Below, piece by piece: positions 11,652-19,598 of a stretch of DNA of 64,000 nt. Position numbers and translations under genes: made by a program. Source of the stretch: Pelagibacterium flavum (GTDB lineage: Bacteria > Pseudomonadota > Alphaproteobacteria > Rhizobiales > Devosiaceae). Positions within the stretch are counted from its first letter, which is position 1; every line of letters begins with the position of its first letter. The notes under the pieces are model-generated. The model searched no databases. It was given only the letters and a program-made list of their open reading frames with translations, and was not told where the DNA came from. Where the stretch lies: NCBI RefSeq assembly GCF_025854335.1, contig NZ_CP107716.1, forward strand, positions 372,001 through 436,000, written 5' to 3'.

Positions 11652-13080
11652 ATATCTCAACAGCCTCGCCCGAATTATGTACATCAACTTTGACCTCCTC
11701 GTGCCTTGGGGCGCAGAACAGAGGCAGTCCTAAGGCTACGGGTCGAGCGTGCGGAAACCCGCAGCAGGGTTGGCCGTGTCATCGAGCGTCTCAAGGCTGG
11801 CGAGGACGGCTAGCTTAACCCCGCTCGGCACGATAAACGCGCAACGTCTACTTCGGAGGAAATGCTAAATCGCATTCAACGCCCAAAGACGGCGATAAAA
11901 CCCGAATGTCGGCTTTCCACACTTCCTTGCCAAAAACAGTCGGTCCGCAACCGGCCCCGATTTCGCCAGACTGCAATGCGCCGCTGCTTCGGCCGTTTAG
12001 TCCATCTTGCGCGCAAACCAAAACCTGCCACTCTCGCCGTGAAGTCCGAGGGGAAGAACAACCTTACATTGCCACCGAGCCACAGGAGCAGAACACCCCC
12101 TTGGTGCGGCATGAAGGGTAGTGGGTGGGTCCTGCGACAGCATGGAAGTCACTCAGACTCCAACGCGGAGGCAGAGTGTCATGCTGAGTTCAACGATTAT
12201 CTGTCGAGTGTCATCGACAACAATGCTGCAGGATTGACATTTCACGACGGCTACCAGAAGCGCTCTGTGTAGCACCGCCCCCTGAGGAGTGCCCGACCGA
12301 CTGCAAGCTGCGCGCATGCCCTGAGCAGCTATCGTTCACCGCCGTCAGCTGCCTCGACCACTCGATTCGGAAGGCTTTGGCCCAGGATTCGCTGCTGAAC
12401 TGAAACGATATCAGATCAGAGTTGGAGAAGCTGGGCCCTGAGCTGGCAGCAAGGCAGTCGAGGCGAACGCCAGCTGTGCTGCGACGGTGAGACGATGCGC
12501 GCACCCAAGGTTCAACGCGATCAAGGATGCACCCAACAAGCGCTTGGAGCTCTTCAGATGCGCGCTCTGAAATCGAAGGGGCGTGCGCCGCCGCTGAATC
12601 GCTAAAATGCGATCAAACGTTTACCCTGTCGGTTAACCCTAAGCGATCAAAGAGCAATTGGGCTCTTGCTATCTCAAACAGCCCGCTTATTTTGGCTTGG
12701 TTGCAGTCATCCCGACCGCGATGCGGCGCCCAGAATTCTGGGCGGTCCCCGCCGGTGTTACGAGCACTGACGAGGACCTGACCGGTAACCTTCTGTGCAA
12801 AGGCCAACGGCTATGACACTCTATATATGCCCCCAAGGATGGGGGGAATCCCTTCGCAAAAGTTTTGCCCATCTCGTGCTCGCTTCGCCCGAAGCGTTGT
12901 GCAGCACCTTGTCCTGTTCCGGCTCCGGCCAGGCCTAGCAAAACCTTTTCCCGACATGCTCCGACCCATCGCCCCGCTGCCCCGGCAGTGAAGGTGAGCG
13001 CGGCTGGCCAATGGTTTTGCACCAGGTCAAAAGCGAGACGCTCGCGAGCATGTCCCTTTATCCTTCGAAGGGATTTTCAA
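11652..13080. other. Gene-poor gap of about 1.4 kb with decayed coding traces
   Basis: I find no convincing gene here. A reading near 11738-11812 encodes ERAETRSRVGRVIERLKAGE before a stop and looks like the end of a lost gene. An open frame at 11862-12272 on the plus strand has a GGAGGA close to its ATG, but its residue composition (basic, proline and serine rich) looks non-coding. The gap marks a sharp boundary between the transport operon and the island that begins with the nuclease-like gene, as expected for a site of repeated insertion and decay. Confidence 0.4.
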
Positions 13081-14181
13081 ATGCCCCATTTTATCTTTCC
13101 CGACCTCCCCTCAGACTTTGCCGATCTTGCTCCCGAATTCGAACGCATCGCCTCCAACGTCGCTGAGCGTTTCGTTTTCGAGACCTCGCGCGATGATCCC
13201 ACTTTCGGTCCGTATGGCGAATTGGCGGCGCTGTTTCGCTCGTCCACCGCGTCCGAGGGTCGTCTGTTTGAAGAGGGCATGCGCTTGCTGCTCGGCACGC
13301 GGGAGCGTTTCATTCTGATCGAAGCGGGGCTCAAACTCCCGCTCATCCCGGCCGCGATCAATGCCGTTGCCTCAAACGATGCCGCCGCCATCGCCAGCCT
13401 GCGCATCGATCCCGACACCTATACCCGGCGCCACTATACCCCCGACGTCATTGTCGTCGAGCGTGAGACGGGCAAGGCGTTCATTCTCGAGCTCAAACGC
13501 ACGAGCAAAAGCTTTGGCCGCGGGCAGATCGATGCACTGGTCGACAAGATGCGCGCGGCCGGGCTTGTGCTCTCGCACACCTTGTTTCATCGCGGCTTTG
13601 GCTTCCCGATCCGTTCGGTCTCGACCTTGCTGGTCGATTGCGACAATTCGGACACCTACAAACGCGTCACCGGAACACATGAGCTCGATGTGACGCTCGC
13701 GGTGCCGGGTCTGGGCACGGCCCTCGATTATCTTCGCGGGCTGTTTGCGGCCAAAGTGCAGACCCAGATCGCCCAGTGCCTGGCGCGCATCGATGGCGCC
13801 ACGCCCGGGCCGATCGCAGCCGAGGTGGTTGTTTCCGAAACGCTTGCTCCCGAACACCCCAATGACCAGCCCGACATCGGGCCAGGTGAGGCAGAGCTGT
13901 GCGTTGTCGAACACCTCGACAAGCCGCGCATGGCCAAACCGCCCCTGCGTGCAGCCAAGGAGGGCAAGAACCTTGGCGAGCCCGATCCTGGGGCGATTGC
14001 GGCCGCCATCCGGCACGGGGTGATGGGGGAAGTCGACAGGACCGGCGTGCCCGCAGCCCTGCGCGAAGCCTTGCGCCGGCAGGCGGCAGAGGGGGAACCG
14101 GCAGCCCAGCTGGTGCTGGACTGGCTCGATCGCTTGCTGCTCGCAAAACTCGATACAGCGCCCATGCGCGTGCGGGTCTAG
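13081..14181 (+). CDS. Hypothetical protein with a PD-(D/E)XK nuclease-like motif
   Basis: A 366-residue protein that I do not recognise by name. Residues 121-139 read as a PD-(D/E)XK core: Pro121-Asp122 (TPDVIVV) and then Glu137-Leu-Lys139 (FILELKR), with a possible upstream acidic Glu64, and it is followed by SFGRGQIDALVDKM, as in many restriction-like folds. This predicts DNA or RNA cleavage, or an inactive nucleic-acid-binding relative. The C-terminal third is charged and probably helical. The start at 13081 follows GAAGGGAT by about 7 bases; a longer reading from 12865 is rejected as it lacks such a site and is non-coding in composition. The gene is followed after 98 bases by an FtsH-like protease and then a recombinase, so the three probably act together. 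Function beyond that is unknown. Confidence 0.7.
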   Translation: MPHFIFPDLPSDFADLAPEFERIASNVAERFVFETSRDDPTFGPYGELAALFRSSTASEGRLFEEGMRLLLGTRERFILIEAGLKLPLIPAAINAVASNDAAAIASLRIDPDTYTRRHYTPDVIVVERETGKAFILELKRTSKSFGRGQIDALVDKMRAAGLVLSHTLFHRGFGFPIRSVSTLLVDCDNSDTYKRVTGTHELDVTLAVPGLGTALDYLRGLFAAKVQTQIAQCLARIDGATPGPIAAEVVVSETLAPEHPNDQPDIGPGEAELCVVEHLDKPRMAKPPLRAAKEGKNLGEPDPGAIAAAIRHGVMGEVDRTGVPAALREALRRQAAEGEPAAQLVLDWLDRLLLAKLDTAPMRVRV

Positions 14182-14197
14182 CGGCCCGAAATCCGCA

Positions 14198-14213
14198 CGG
14201 GCCTACCGGCCCG
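14198..14213 (+). terminator. Hairpin between nuclease-like and protease genes
   Basis: CGGGCC at 14198-14203 and GGCCCG at 14208-14213 form a 6-bp stem with the tetraloop TACC, 17 bases after the stop of the upstream gene. It may attenuate read-through and set the ratio of the nuclease-like protein to the protease. There is no U-tract close behind it. Confidence 0.4.
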
Positions 14214-14279
14214 ACCACTTTGTTTCAAGTCCGAATCAATCCGACGACGCGTCCTTTTTTGGGGCGTGATGGAGACCCC

Positions 14280-16118
14280 ATGCCTTTCAAGTCCATATCC
14301 AAGTCCAAGCCCGACCCGATTCAGCGCTCGGCGATTGATGTCTTTCCCAAATTTGTTGCGCAGGCGCTGCTGGGCAAGCCGTTTCTGGCCGAAATCGCCG
14401 CCAAATCCGAGACCGCCTTTGCGCTGATTATTCACGTGCCCAATGAGAACTGGATGGGCTTTCTCGCCGACGGTCTGCTTTCGATCTTGCCCGGGACGAT
14501 CATCGAACAGATCCGGCCCGGCCGGCGTCGCTCGATCGATGCCTCCAACAATCAATGTCTCGACTATTTGGCCGACGGCCGTTCGGTGGTCGCCATAACA
14601 TACGATCCGAGTGTGATTTCAAAAGACCTGCAGGCAACGGCCGATCGGATCGTCGAAGTTGAGGGCATCGATGTTCGCGTCGTGCGCCGCGCCATTAATG
14701 CAGTTGCGGGCGAGCGCGCCAAGGGTTTGACCCGGACAGATATCGCAACGCTCTCTCCCATTGCGGTGATGGCGGCCATTCGCAACGCCAAGTCGGCAGT
14801 GGAGGCCGTAGCGCGTTTGCGCCGCGCCGCATCGGGCCCCACCGCGCGCACCGCCAATTCCGACCTGCCCAAGCTTGCCGCGTTGCCGCTGGTTGCTGAG
14901 GTGCGTGAGTGGGCCGATACCTTACGCGATGATCTGGCAGCGCTGCGGCGCGGGCAGATCAAAGCCGACGACATCCGCTACGGCGTGCTCGAAGGCCCGC
15001 CGGGCACCGGCAAGTCCTTGCTCGGCGAGGTGCTTGCCCAAAGTGCCGGCTGGCGGTTTGTCGGCACGAGCGTGCCCACATGGTTTTCATCGACCGATGG
15101 CCATCTGGGCGGTGTGACCCGTGCCGCAACCGAATTCTTCATCGATCTCCTGACCCACGATTTCAGCATTGGGTTTCTCGATGAATTGCAGTCGATCCCC
15201 GACCGCTCGGCAATGGACGCCAGCCACCGTGAATGGTGGACAACGCTGGTGGATCTTGTGCTGTTGCAGATCGATCGCGTGCGCAAGTCCGGGCGCCCGA
15301 TCCTGCTGCTGGGGGCGTGTAATCACTACAACCATCTCGATACCGCCCTGATCCGCGGCGGCCGGCTCGAGCAGAAGATCACGGTCCGTCCGCCCGCGAG
15401 CGTTCATGAAGTCCACAACGTTTTGCGGTTTTATTGCGGTACGGCAATCGATGACGGCGAGCTTGAAGCAATCGCCCGCCTGGCGCTTGGCCGCGCCCCG
15501 GCCGATCTGGCCGCGGGCGTAAAACAGGCCCGCGCCCTTGCGCGGCGGGCGGGCAGGGCGCTGGTGCCCGCCGATCTGCACGCCGGCATGGACCTGTCGC
15601 CGGAGCGCCATGGCCCATCTCTGGAGATCGTTGCGCGCCATGAAGCGGCACACGCGCTGATCGCTCACCGGCTTGGCGCACATGTGAACTCGGTCACAAT
15701 AGTGTCAGCCGGCATGAGTGCGGGCGCAACCGAATCTGACTGGGGCGATGCGCCGATGACCCGGCACATGCTCGAAGATCGGGTGAAGGTTGCTTTGGCC
15801 GGGCGGGTTGCCGATGAAATCTTTAACGGTGGTGCATCCTCGGGCGCGGTGGGTGATCTCGCATTTGCGAGCAACCTGTTGCGCCGGGGACGGCTCGAAC
15901 TCGGTCTTTATGACCGGCTTGGCACGATTGACAGTAATGGCGTGATGGCGCGGTTCGATGGTGAATGGCTCGAGGCGAGGCTGAGATGGCTGATGGCGGA
16001 AACCCGCGCCCTGGTTTATGCCGAACGGGCAAAGATCCTCGAGCTTTCGGACATCTTGCTCGAGAAAAAAGTGCTCGACGCCGACGAGATTGTTGCCGCT
16101 CTGGGGGTGGGCAAATGA
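14280..16118 (+). CDS. Soluble FtsH-like AAA+ ATPase with M41-type zinc protease domain
   Basis: A 612-residue protein. Walker A GPPGTGKS starts at residue 239, Walker B is FLDE ending at 302, a sensor-1 asparagine lies in GACNHYNH and an arginine-finger-like GGRLEQ follows. The C-terminal domain has the zinc site HEAAH at 454-458 and the third ligand Asp526 in GAVGDLAFAS, matching the FtsH layout HExxH ... GAxxD. There is no N-terminal membrane segment; instead about 230 residues of unfamiliar sequence occupy the position of the FtsH transmembrane region, so it should be cytoplasmic and choose other substrates. Its gene overlaps the following recombinase by 4 bases (ATGA), a coupling not seen with housekeeping ftsH. 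Known FtsH enzymes degrade regulators and phage factors; here control of the recombinase or the nuclease-like neighbour is a reasonable but untested idea. Confidence 0.8.
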   Translation: MPFKSISKSKPDPIQRSAIDVFPKFVAQALLGKPFLAEIAAKSETAFALIIHVPNENWMGFLADGLLSILPGTIIEQIRPGRRRSIDASNNQCLDYLADGRSVVAITYDPSVISKDLQATADRIVEVEGIDVRVVRRAINAVAGERAKGLTRTDIATLSPIAVMAAIRNAKSAVEAVARLRRAASGPTARTANSDLPKLAALPLVAEVREWADTLRDDLAALRRGQIKADDIRYGVLEGPPGTGKSLLGEVLAQSAGWRFVGTSVPTWFSSTDGHLGGVTRAATEFFIDLLTHDFSIGFLDELQSIPDRSAMDASHREWWTTLVDLVLLQIDRVRKSGRPILLLGACNHYNHLDTALIRGGRLEQKITVRPPASVHEVHNVLRFYCGTAIDDGELEAIARLALGRAPADLAAGVKQARALARRAGRALVPADLHAGMDLSPERHGPSLEIVARHEAAHALIAHRLGAHVNSVTIVSAGMSAGATESDWGDAPMTRHMLEDRVKVALAGRVADEIFNGGASSGAVGDLAFASNLLRRGRLELGLYDRLGTIDSNGVMARFDGEWLEARLRWLMAETRALVYAERAKILELSDILLEKKVLDADEIVAALGVGK

Positions 16119-16996
16119 ACTGGCGTCACCATTTCGATCGGCTGGAGGGCGCTTATGCGTCTTCAACGATCAAGTCTTACATCAGGGATTTCGAAGCGTT
16201 CGCCGGTTGGTGTCGCCGCAAGCGGCTCCGCGCTTTGCCGGCCAGTGCACAAACGGTGGCCCGCTTTATAGATGCGCAAAGCCAGGAGCTGAAAATCAGT
16301 TCAATCAAGCGCAAGATGTGCGCAATCCGCAAAGTCCATCGCCTTGCGGGGTTCAACGACATCGATGAGCATGAAACGATCGCGCTGGCGCTGCGTCGTG
16401 CAAAACGCGCCAGGCCGGGCCGCCCGCGCCAAGCCTTGGGCGTCACATTCGAGCGGCGTAATGCGCTGATGGGCAAGTGTTCCGACGACCTTGTCGGTCT
16501 TCGTGACAAGGTTATGGTGGCGGTTGGGTTCGACACGCTGTGCCGGCGGGCCGAACTCGTTGGTCTGCGCGTTGAAGATTTTCAGATGAGCGATGCTGGC
16601 ACCCTCACCGTGCTGGTCAGACGCGCCAAAAACGACCAAGACGGGCTGGGGCGCATTGCACATTTGTCGGCTGAGACGACCCGCCTCGTCCAGCACTGGC
16701 TGGAGATGACCGGTCTCGAGCGCGGCCCATTGCTGCGGCCAATCTACAAAGGCAAGATCGGCGCGCGCTATTTGCATCCCGCCGCCGTGGGGCGGGTTCT
16801 CAAGCGCTTGTCCAGCATGGCCTACGACCCTGAAATTGCAAAAAAAGTAAGCGGACATTCGCTGCGCGTGGGTTCCGCACAGACGCTGGCAAAGCGCGGG
16901 GTCGGCTTGCTCGCAATCATGTCGGTGGGCGGCTGGCGGTCGTCCAATACTGTCGCGCGCTATGTCGAAAACGTCGAGGTCAATCCGTGGCAGTGA
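16115..16996 (+). CDS. Tyrosine recombinase coupled to the AAA+ protease
   Basis: A 293-residue site-specific recombinase with an N-terminal SAM-like arm (about 10-95) and a catalytic domain. Visible catalytic residues are Arg145 (CRRAEL), Lys172 (RRAKND), His248 and Arg251 (GHSLRVG), Trp274 (GGWRSS) and Tyr283 (ARYVEN). The ATG at 16115 overlaps the stop of the protease gene as ATGA, so it is translated in step with it. A recombinase as the last gene of an operon with a protease suggests that element movement is under proteolytic control, or that the operon is the core of an integrative element. No excisionase is evident. Confidence 0.88.
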   Translation: MNWRHHFDRLEGAYASSTIKSYIRDFEAFAGWCRRKRLRALPASAQTVARFIDAQSQELKISSIKRKMCAIRKVHRLAGFNDIDEHETIALALRRAKRARPGRPRQALGVTFERRNALMGKCSDDLVGLRDKVMVAVGFDTLCRRAELVGLRVEDFQMSDAGTLTVLVRRAKNDQDGLGRIAHLSAETTRLVQHWLEMTGLERGPLLRPIYKGKIGARYLHPAAVGRVLKRLSSMAYDPEIAKKVSGHSLRVGSAQTLAKRGVGLLAIMSVGGWRSSNTVARYVENVEVNPWQ

Positions 16997-17162: not shown

Positions 17163-17975
17163 ATGCAAGACGACGAAATAAGCCTGCTCGATCTGGGCGT
17201 AACGATCGCCGAGAACTGGCTGTTGCTTGTATTGGTGCCGCTTGCGCTGGGTGTTGCAGCCTTCACTTTTCTCTCTCTTGGTGGCCATCACTACCGCGCC
17301 AGCATCACCGTGCCGTTTGCTGCCGACGAGATTGCAGCCCTTTGGGAGGGAAGCGAAGACAACCAACTGGCGGTCCCGAACGTCGGACTGGCAGATGGTG
17401 TCTCAGACGGCGTCGTTATTGTAGCGAGGGGAGATGGTCAGGCGAGCACCCTTTCGCTGGTTGGAGATGCACCTGAAGAGTTGCGGACCGCGCTCGATGA
17501 GATTGGCGATATCATCACCGAGGCAGCCAATGCCGGCGTGATCGCGCCGTCTCAAGCCCGTACCGCAGAGCGGATTGACGAGGTAAGAGCGTCCATTGCG
17601 CTCCGCTCGCAGGTCATCGCGGATCTTGAGGCCGATCTTGGGGGTAATGATGAGGTCGAGGGATCGGACTATGCGCTGGGCGCACTCGCACTTGCCCAAA
17701 TGCTCGAAGGGCGCGCTGCCGACCGCGCACGACTCCAGGCCCTCAATGACGAAATGGCGGCAACCGAAATGCCGATCGATGGTGCCGAGGTTTCGGTTGA
17801 AAGCCTGGGACGGTCGCCCCTTTTGATGGCAATTCTCGTCGTGCTTGGCAGCGGCTTTTTTCTCCTGATCCTGGTCTTTGTGCGCCAGGGTCTAAAGGGC
17901 GCTTCCCAGGACCCCGCGGCCCGGGAGAAAATCGAACGCATCCGCAACAGCCTCTTGCTGCGCCGAAACAGTTAG
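17163..17975 (+). CDS. Wzz-like polysaccharide chain-length determinant
   Basis: A 270-residue inner-membrane protein with the polysaccharide co-polymerase layout: a short cytoplasmic N terminus (DDEISLLDLGVTIAENW), TM1 near 18-40, a periplasmic helical domain, and TM2 near 220-242 followed by a basic cytoplasmic tail. The N-terminal ISLLDL pattern is typical of Wzz proteins, which set the number of repeat units made by a Wzy polymerase. There is no tyrosine kinase domain. Its expected partners (dehydrogenase, flippase, polymerase) begin about 8 kb downstream, beyond a block of mobile genes, so the gene appears separated from its cluster by an insertion. It is shorter than classical Wzz (about 325 residues) but complete at both ends. 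Confidence 0.72.
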   Translation: MQDDEISLLDLGVTIAENWLLLVLVPLALGVAAFTFLSLGGHHYRASITVPFAADEIAALWEGSEDNQLAVPNVGLADGVSDGVVIVARGDGQASTLSLVGDAPEELRTALDEIGDIITEAANAGVIAPSQARTAERIDEVRASIALRSQVIADLEADLGGNDEVEGSDYALGALALAQMLEGRAADRARLQALNDEMAATEMPIDGAEVSVESLGRSPLLMAILVVLGSGFFLLILVFVRQGLKGASQDPAAREKIERIRNSLLLRRNS

Positions 17976-18248: not shown

Positions 18249-19598
18249 TTAACGGCTGTCGGGATCGTCTTTCCCGCTCCGAACCAGTGCCGGGTTTTCG
18301 GTTGCCCGCAACCCTGCCTCTCGTGCCGCATCCTTGTCGGCGCGCCGGCGCTGGGCCCGCGCCAGACTGGCGGCCACCTCATTGGGATCGCGCGGATCGG
18401 CGACGCTTTGATAATAGGCGCGAACCTCCTCGGCCGTGAGCCCGCGTGGCGAAGTGTCGGGTTTATAGATTGGGGTCGGCATGTCCTCTTCGACAAAGAG
18501 GGAAGCCTGGTCGGTAACAGGTGTCTGCGGCGCATCAGGCTGTTGATCGGGCCAAATGGCATCGGCATCGCGGGGGGCGGCCACGCGCTCAAATATCTGC
18601 TCATCATCGCCTGGGTTTGCGGGCGCCTCGGCAATTGGCGCAAGAGCTGGGTTGAACTCATCCACCGCCCGCGCCACCGCATCCCGGTCATGGCCGACCG
18701 CGCCGCGGGCATAATGGGCATGGGCGGTGCGGATCGAAAGATGTCCGCAAAGCTTTGCGATTTCGAGAGCTGACAGCCCGGCCCGCGTCCAGGTGGCGAT
18801 CGCGACATGCCGAAAACTGTAAAGCGAGAGGTTACGGATTTTGACCCTTTCGCAGGCGCGGGTGATCTGCCCGGCGAGACATTTTTGCCATTTAGCGAAT
18901 TCACGCTTGCTCAGATCATGGTCGATCAGCTTGAGCAACAGATTTAGCCCCATCAGCACGTCTTTATGCAGTTCGGAGAGATCGAGCACGCGCGTGGTGT
19001 CCTGGCCCGGGCGTTTTTTTGCGTTAAGAAGGATAAGCTTTTCGCCCTCGAGGACGGCGCCGCGCATTTCGATGGGTCGAAACCCGCAATGACCGGCGAC
19101 CAGAACAAAAAGCCCAGCCAATATCGAATTGGGATTTTTGTATTTCAGCCCGTGACGCTTGAGCTCGTAAAAGAGTTTTTCGGCTTCCGCCTCGGTGGCA
19201 TCAACATGTTTCTTGGCCGAGGTTCGCCGATCCTCCTCGGGAATTTTGGCCTTTCGCGCCTTCAGAGCGTCGTCCACGCGTTCAAAGGCGGCTTCGAATT
19301 CGGCCATGCGCCCCGTGGCCTCAAAATTCTCGCGCAAGCCATGTCTGAGATAGGCGCGATACCGGGTGATCGATCCTTTTTCTAGGGGACCGGCTACGGA
19401 CTGCTGCGCGATCAGCGCGTCTTCGGGGAGGAAATCGGGCCAGCTCTTCATTGCCTCGGCCAGCCGACGTCGCCCGATAATGAGGTAGCCCTCGGTCGTC
19501 TCGGTTGACGCTGGGCCAGATGAGGGGGGGCAAATGACGGGGCATGGAAACTTCACTTTGTTGCATGACTCCACGGAATTATAGCCAAGTTCCTGCAT
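18249..19598 (-). CDS. Tyrosine recombinase-like protein with long C-terminal extension
   Basis: A 449-residue protein with a recombinase core at about 155-300: Arg174 (GFRPIE), Lys194, Arg263 and His264 (YSFRHVA), His286 (LCGHLS) and Tyr296 (HAHYAR). The first histidine of the usual HxxR box is a tyrosine (Tyr260), so activity may be altered. Beyond residue 300 lies an unusual acidic and alanine-rich extension of about 150 residues, ending in a basic segment. The start at 19598 lies inside a repeated 16-mer; a shorter start at 19451 (Met50) is possible. Upstream is an iteron array, and the gene points outward toward the Wzz side, as integrases often do at the edge of an element. Confidence 0.75.
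   Translation of the reverse strand: MQELGYNSVESCNKVKFPCPVICPPSSGPASTETTEGYLIIGRRRLAEAMKSWPDFLPEDALIAQQSVAGPLEKGSITRYRAYLRHGLRENFEATGRMAEFEAAFERVDDALKARKAKIPEEDRRTSAKKHVDATEAEAEKLFYELKRHGLKYKNPNSILAGLFVLVAGHCGFRPIEMRGAVLEGEKLILLNAKKRPGQDTTRVLDLSELHKDVLMGLNLLLKLIDHDLSKREFAKWQKCLAGQITRACERVKIRNLSLYSFRHVAIATWTRAGLSALEIAKLCGHLSIRTAHAHYARGAVGHDRDAVARAVDEFNPALAPIAEAPANPGDDEQIFERVAAPRDADAIWPDQQPDAPQTPVTDQASLFVEEDMPTPIYKPDTSPRGLTAEEVRAYYQSVADPRDPNEVAASLARAQRRRADKDAAREAGLRATENPALVRSGKDDPDSR

Follow-up and report, generated by a model that had tools for sequence, protein, structure and literature searches.

We analysed a window of 64,000 nucleotides from Pelagibacterium flavum (contig NZ_CP107716.1, positions 372,001 to 436,000), in which three forward-strand genes at 13081-16996 form a tight operon. 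The first encodes a predicted nuclease ending in a small domain that we call S, the second a soluble AAA+/M41 zinc protease and the third a tyrosine recombinase. Judged from comparison with homologous loci, genes 1 and 2 are one functional unit, because their pairing is conserved, fused and split forms occur and two nuclease types occupy one slot. We suggest that an exchangeable nuclease, S and an AAA/zinc protease together make up a module whose nuclease is an effector restrained by AAA-driven proteolysis, probably in defence against invaders; we favour this reading tentatively and stop short of calling it probable. We rate the module as a new kind of system by its anatomy, since no named system with the same anatomy was met as far as searched; its function may prove familiar. 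The features on which the argument draws are as follows.

13081..14181, + strand: gene 1, predicted PD-(D/E)XK-type nuclease (residues about 40-245) plus small S domain; open reading frame (ORF) of 366 amino acids
13441..13497, + strand: putative catalytic motif region of gene 1, P121-D122 ... E137-L-K139 (TPD...ELKR), from the sequence and a 27-row alignment
13954..14178, + strand: S domain, residues 292-366 of gene 1, from a profile of 5 Devosiaceae sequences; a separate gene in several relatives
14280..16118, + strand: gene 2, soluble AAA+/M41 zinc protease; ORF of 612 amino acids
14307..14879, + strand: gene-2 N-terminus (residues 10-200), a probable degenerate AAA domain, from hhalign to the protein's own AAA domain
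14988..15386, + strand: AAA ATPase domain of gene 2 (Pfam PF00004), residues 237-369, with Walker A, E302, N348, R359 and R362 conserved
15624..15935, + strand: Peptidase M41 domain of gene 2 (Pfam), residues 449-552, with HEAAH at 15639-15653 and the distal Asp D526
16115..16996, + strand: gene 3, tyrosine recombinase, read as an accessory mobility gene; ORF of 293 amino acids

A first-pass annotation, made from the letters alone, had described a tight operon with the last gene coupled by ATGA. The ORFs bear out both the coordinates and the overlap: genes 1 and 2 are spaced 98 nt apart, and the start of gene 3 overlaps the end of gene 2 via ATGA. The clustering is other than chance, because it recurs in other genomes.

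The nuclease-type protein, the S domain and the protease

Gene 1 found no match in Pfam, NCBIfam, PHROGs or PADLOC and nothing relevant in the PDB, and a profile search (E<=1) raised the number of its protein relatives from 3 to 13. In six cases apart from the own genome, a contig with such a relative matches in length a contig that carries a gene-2 relative. In 27 aligned sequences from plasmid and genome relatives, residues G60, E64, D122, K139 and R140 are kept in every row; position 137 is E or D in 26/27, with Ser in L053 only. When profiles were compared, gene 1 aligned to TnsA (hhalign 36.4%, E 3.7e-4) such that the upstream Glu, TPD and E-x-K all line up, and seven other profiles (Mrr, Shedu, GIY-YIG, M41, AAA, the gene-2 N-terminus and S) reached 1.6% at most. 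Shedu and Mrr, tried as relatives of gene 1, gained no support from this comparison. The earlier assignment to the PD-(D/E)XK group is favoured by the retained motif and the TnsA register, but neither Pfam nor the PDB adds a match. From profile comparison we take gene 1 to be a probable PD-(D/E)XK-type nuclease.

In gene-1 relatives of about 288 amino acids the last 75 residues are missing; L054 has them as a separate gene of 89 amino acids between nuclease and protease. Truncation of the L054 gene by a stop codon was considered and rejected, since the ~288-residue form ends there in several relatives and S is the next gene. We searched all ORFs of the loci with a profile of five Devosiaceae S sequences. 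It matched short ORFs that separate the nuclease from the AAA gene: a hidden one in L123, and small genes in L098, L161 and ten plasmid records. These matches span E 1e-5 to 0.017, in a ranking that includes one unrelated ORF, L120 (0.0049), and L162 is weak (0.058). An S-like domain ends the GIY-YIG partners of another family or forms small genes, some of them beside phosphoesterases; it aligns to S at 34.6% (hhalign, E 4e-4), against at most 1.5% for seven other profiles.

Gene 2 matches the Pfam models AAA (1.5e-16) and Peptidase_M41 (3.9e-15). Most of Walker A (G239, P241-K245), E302, N348, R359 and R362 are invariant in 46 aligned homologues, as are the zinc-protease residues H454, E455 and H458 and the distal D526. 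No membrane helix is indicated by hydrophobicity (best 19-residue Kyte-Doolittle mean 1.28), and the N-terminal FtsH family is absent among the Pfam matches. The protease without membrane anchor, with HEAAH and distal Asp, that had been read from the sequence is upheld by these invariant residues and by the maximum hydropathy. Its N-terminal ~230 residues had been called unfamiliar, a description to be amended: profile comparison aligns some 200 of them with the AAA domain of the same protein (hhalign 42.7%, E 2.5e-4; five other profiles at most 0.5%). With another hhalign setting the value is 22.1% (E 1.9e-4), and the match is to the part after Walker B. That the N-terminus is a dead AAA domain is moderately supported by these alignments.

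FtsH is the best named match of gene 2 (TIGR01241, 1.7e-30; PDB FtsH, 2.8e-25), with AAA followed by M41 and the same catalytic residues. However, gene 2 scores 106 bits against an NCBIfam equivalog cut-off of 600. It further differs from FtsH in having no membrane part, a putative dead-AAA-like N-domain and a nuclease-type partner, and in being split in Rhizobiaceae plasmids.

Conserved pairing and split forms

The tree and the neighbour comparison cover 120 gene-2 homologues from 121 sequence records, window included. These rows are loci chosen from E-value-filtered lists and are a subset of the homologues; from an initial 125, rows under 480 amino acids and one ORF without a called gene were dropped. 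Genes were predicted with a purpose-built codon model, and a partner was labelled as a same-strand gene no more than three places upstream (the GIY-YIG-like gene of L064 stands third). The tree was built by a quick method, with a midpoint root for drawing, and the long rows L049, L162 and L160 are unsure.

The homologues form two lineages, one of 54 rows that holds the window and one of 66, separated by a split with a support of 88 that is not starred. Within the window's lineage the upstream gene is GIY-YIG/DUF4357 in 44/54, a gene-1 relative in 6/54, another gene in three and no same-strand gene in one; a nuclease-type gene is found upstream in 50 of these 54 homologues. Over the whole set there are 50 pairs in which the nuclease gene is the immediate neighbour, with a median gap of 87 bp. 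Gene-1 partners stand at two places in the window's lineage, namely a group of five (99, starred) and L098 within a set of 12 (100, starred), and two further gene-1 rows, L053 and L162, lie in the second lineage. Mapping the gene-1 label onto the full tree takes 4 changes, each of them required by starred branches.

The GIY-YIG label of the partners is tentative, taken from DUF4357, weak UvrC hits in the PDB and the annotation of one record. DUF4357 was found in 8/11 members (E up to 0.1, best 2.4e-8), and the Pfam GIY-YIG model in 0/11. Four UvrC chains head the six PDB hits, which are weak (E 0.21-0.7), and a plasmid record's own 'GIY-YIG nuclease family protein' matches the partner profile (3e-27).

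Among 136 genomes of the window's family, gene 1 occurs in seven (8 loci), and a gene-2-like gene lies downstream at all 8. L053, from another family, carries a weaker gene-1 relative (profile E 1.1e-5) with a gene-2 relative downstream, bringing the total to 9/9; one of those nine downstream relatives is a fragment at a contig end (E 3.6e-6). Gene-2 profile matches were obtained in 128/136 family genomes, many with only FtsH-like scores near 1e-62, and most gene-2 homologues are paired with a partner other than gene 1. A wider class survey of 385 genomes, in which the best 3-5 candidates per genome were scored and the own genome was counted, found gene 1 in 1/385 and gene 2 (E<=1e-75) in 12/385.

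Eleven Rhizobiaceae plasmid records carry the same parts as separate genes: a gene-1 relative, then S, an AAA gene and a separate protease gene, the genes often overlapping and several of the protease genes annotated 'ATP-dependent Zn protease'. S is present in all 11 records, in one of them as a hidden ORF. The AAA gene is found in 10/11, the eleventh gene-1 relative ending at the edge of its linearised record. The separate protease is found in 8/11; at its position two of the remaining records carry an IS3 transposase, and the third breaks off. In L174, L175, L181 and L183 the plasmid AAA gene ends early or is split. What are two genes in the window are up to four elsewhere (nuclease, S, AAA and Zn-protease), and by this comparison the operon of the window holds two fusions, nuclease-S and AAA-protease, because the plasmids carry the four parts separately. 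The first-pass annotation had allowed that homologues of these genes might mostly live apart; genes 1 and 2 instead stay together, at 9/9 genome loci and in 10/11 plasmid relatives. On plasmid pCMU01, TIR, phosphoesterase, exonuclease and S8-peptidase genes surround a more distant homologue of gene 2. At L056:9446-17387 two GIY-YIG/AAA-M41 units stand back to back, one with a recombinase, and a ParA-like gene (by eye) lies downstream of the protease at L085:9404-10069, L056:8319-8960 and L091:5928-6578.

Proposed proteolytic gating of a nuclease and competing explanations

The mechanism that we propose builds on what the loci show: conserved pairing, fused and split forms, a slot filled by two nuclease types, conserved catalytic residues and a recombinase that can be absent. 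To these it would add nuclease activity, a role for S as adaptor, a direction of control, a trigger and an anti-invader purpose. By analogy with FtsH, the AAA-M41 protease would be a hexamer. It would recognise the nuclease via S, and perhaps also via its own supposedly dead AAA-like N-domain, and in the uninfected cell would restrain the nuclease by unfolding or degrading it. Invading DNA of a phage or plasmid, or a foreign protein, would then occupy or block the protease, such that the nuclease is freed and DNA is cut. The recombinase would stand outside this mechanism and move the unit between genomes. More broadly, it is possible, though speculative, that we are dealing with an immune or element-guarding machine in which a shared S couples an exchangeable nuclease (PD-(D/E)XK, GIY-YIG or possibly phosphoesterase) to a soluble AAA+/zinc protease, with proteolysis gating DNA cutting and a sister protease branch taken up beside Tn7-like machinery.

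Several findings weigh against a gated defence nuclease. The similarity of gene 1 to TnsA, at 36.4%, is not decisive. Mrr and Shedu are PD-(D/E)XK families, and their profiles (that of Shedu with 3 rows) reach 0.1% against gene 1, with Pfam and the PDB silent; the missing Mrr/Shedu match counts mildly against the PD-(D/E)XK assignment or marks how far the method reaches. The S-profile scan of ORFs found no S in the gap of L124, nor in most GIY-YIG partners. In PADLOC, gene 1 has no model, and gene 2 is matched by generic AAA models only. The second lineage is mostly without an active nuclease just upstream and often lies by Tn7-like genes and a degenerate TnsA, a context that would fit control of a mobile element at least as well. 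Lastly, raw PADLOC hits in the neighbourhood are about as frequent as in control regions (22/120 vs 19/115, the control covering 7 regions), and a gap appears only once shared names are set aside.

The neighbour scan behind these figures took in 120 of 274 neighbour genes at a PADLOC cut-off of 1e-10. They matched 22 models with one hit each, and the 115 control genes matched 9 models with 19 hits. Family names seen only near the module number 12 (including Mza, AbiLi, AbiU, HEC and PDC candidates), and those seen only in the control number 5. The neighbours give weak support to a defence setting. Pfam families among the same 120 genes include nucleotide-sugar epimerases (4), ParA-like ATPases (7) and DUF6634 (6). 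At default thresholds the window holds no tRNA or Rfam element as an att target.

It had also been suggested that the operon might belong to an integrative element. In such an account the protease would remove or remodel the DNA-breaking enzymes of its carrier element (recombinase, TnsA-like nuclease, transposase) and the nuclease would act in integration or excision, much as ClpX acts on Mu transposase and ImmA on the repressors of integrative and conjugative elements (ICEs). We rate this as the main rival, less likely than the gated nuclease. In the second lineage 38/66 homologues lie near at least two of tnsA, tnsB, tnsC and tniQ (Pfam names for representatives), and a degenerate TnsA homologue is found upstream in 19/120 of the whole set. 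This protein, of 200 amino acids, aligns to TnsA at 96.3% (hhalign, E 2e-9) and has lost E-x-K. Of the profiles compared, TnsA is the one nearest to gene 1, and gene 3 is ATGA-coupled to gene 2. However, the fetched flanks never hold two Tn7 core genes at the 54 window-lineage loci, and a recombinase accompanies the pair at just 14, so that the pair lives without either. The nuclease may moreover be GIY-YIG, and GIY-YIG nucleases are not known to take part in tyrosine recombination. The second-lineage gene could also be a target of insertion rather than part of a transposon. A further point in favour of element control is the treatment of an ICE regulatory module in PMC10233336, where 'metalloprotease' is mentioned 10 times. 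Whether the protease helps to control Tn7-like transposition is a question that the second lineage raises. A DUF6634 gene lies upstream of some of its homologues, and L115, L116 and L119 have tandem AAA-M41 genes with a degenerate TnsA gene between them.

An addiction module appears improbable. Here the protease would keep a toxic nuclease harmless, and loss of the plasmid or island would free the nuclease and so retain the element. The order of toxin-like gene then controller is compatible, and four of the 11 plasmid copies stand divergently beside repABC (two of the 11 records are unannotated in this stretch); these four look closely related, however, and make few independent cases. A large protease is unusual as an antitoxin, the copy in the window lies in a 3.93-Mb contig rather than a small plasmid, and the two plasmid copies with an IS3 transposase at the protease position still keep the nuclease gene and its motif. 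That the genes are chance or loose cargo neighbours is very hard to credit: island genes are often shuffled, and 41/57 family matches of gene 3 lie away from gene 2, but the pairing in 50/54, the fused and split forms and the two nuclease types at the same place disfavour it for genes 1 and 2, leaving it partly true for gene 3.

A gated nuclease-protease module resembles several known systems in part. IetAS consists of an AAA ATPase and an S8 subtilase protease. The PADLOC matches to gene 2 are generic ones to its AAA part (IetA and TRIP13 models), no system-specific model matching gene 1 or 2; the IetA match (4e-8, 31 bits) and the idea of AAA plus protease are shared. However, gene 2 stands at 22.7 against a curated 510 bits, its protease is a zinc M41 enzyme with a nuclease-type partner, and the operon joins it to gene 1, which lacks a Pfam match, and to gene 3, with no S8 protease. 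The Tn7 core pairs the TnsA nuclease with the AAA protein TnsC, gene 1 is nearest TnsA by profile and the second lineage is often by tnsABC; by contrast, no Tn7 core gene pair is near the 54 window-lineage loci, and the AAA protein here is a protease. McrBC-type restriction joins an AAA motor to a PD-(D/E)XK nuclease, an arrangement akin to the one predicted here, and the AAA protein here is FtsH-like with a protease domain. The first-pass annotation could not match the combination to any named system, and our searches of Pfam, NCBIfam, PHROGs, PADLOC and the literature agree. The system was not described in the literature searched (subscription papers and most preprints lay outside scope), including passages of PMC8649781, PMC10293859 and PMC13092281, nor did we meet there an FtsH-type machine that gates a nuclease by proteolysis. 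Two nuclease types in a fixed slot, fused and split forms and a shared small domain make this a concrete, testable model.

Recombinase, mobility and genomic setting

Gene 3 is a tyrosine recombinase by its Pfam matches, Phage_integrase (1.2e-15) and Phage_int_SAM_1 (1.2e-6), both above the curated cut-off. The co-occurrence of three families proposed earlier holds for genes 1 and 2 but not for the recombinase, which is coupled to only 14/120 gene-2 homologues (11 with GIY-YIG, 3 with gene 1), all in the window's family. Gene 3 is found in 40/136 family genomes (E<=1e-15), with 57 matches, several of them pieces of one gene; 16 adjoin gene 2 and 41 are elsewhere, as computed for 25 gene-2 places and compared by eye for the remaining list. 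A three-part system was therefore rejected, the recombinase being optional. All 13 matches of at least 52% identity (own gene counted) adjoin gene 2, compared with 3/44 of the rest. Ten non-adjacent relatives were inspected, and in eight of them the genes listed upstream had no gene-1, gene-2, GIY-YIG or S profile match; in two of the ten the recombinase itself was not called as a gene.

The observations fit a mobile unit with gene 3 as its putative mover. In G406, a genome of the same species, the triad lies between largely different neighbours and gene 3 is only 67% identical. One further feature is shared with that genome:

12718..12872, + strand: segment preceding gene 1; over 155 bases it shares 80% identity with the segment that precedes the G406 triad

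Both the window and G406 carry a second-type recombinase close by, oppositely oriented with respect to the triad. G408 shows synteny with the transporter operon on the module's left but lacks the module: it has no gene-1 match and matches gene 2 only at FtsH-like level. In this empty-site comparison the right border of the module could not be placed, and element ends were not found. A phage origin was rejected: viral contigs contain no gene-1 relative, and the relatives of gene 2 there, at least 10, are distant ones. One GIY-YIG partner found no counterpart in phage records, but it does match a PHROG of unknown function.

The copy in the window is probably chromosomal, because the window is part of a single 3.93-Mb contig. 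Among named relatives of the gene-2 protein, the closest belong to Pelagibacterium and Devosia. A genome-contig scan using gene 2 gave no match. The same genome (G000:C1) carries two further AAA-M41 units, at 284108-285961 and 2451233-2452795; of these, L054 has a gene-1 relative with separate S, and L055 a GIY-YIG partner.

Lastly, we note several features of the flanks. A repeat of about 57-75 bp at 11899-11968, without tRNA or Rfam match within the window, recurs with 73-85% identity at scattered sites in most genomes of the genus. Just 3′ of gene 3, the ORF at 17163-17975 encodes a protein that matches Wzz weakly and below the cut-off (0.028) and has a membrane helix at its C-terminus, and what look like polysaccharide genes adjoin the gene-3 relatives of L056, L058, L226 and L229 (L226 and L229 by eye). 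At 18249-19598 is a second, different tyrosine recombinase (weak Pfam match), profile relatives of which lie near the unit in L056, L059, L085 and L125.

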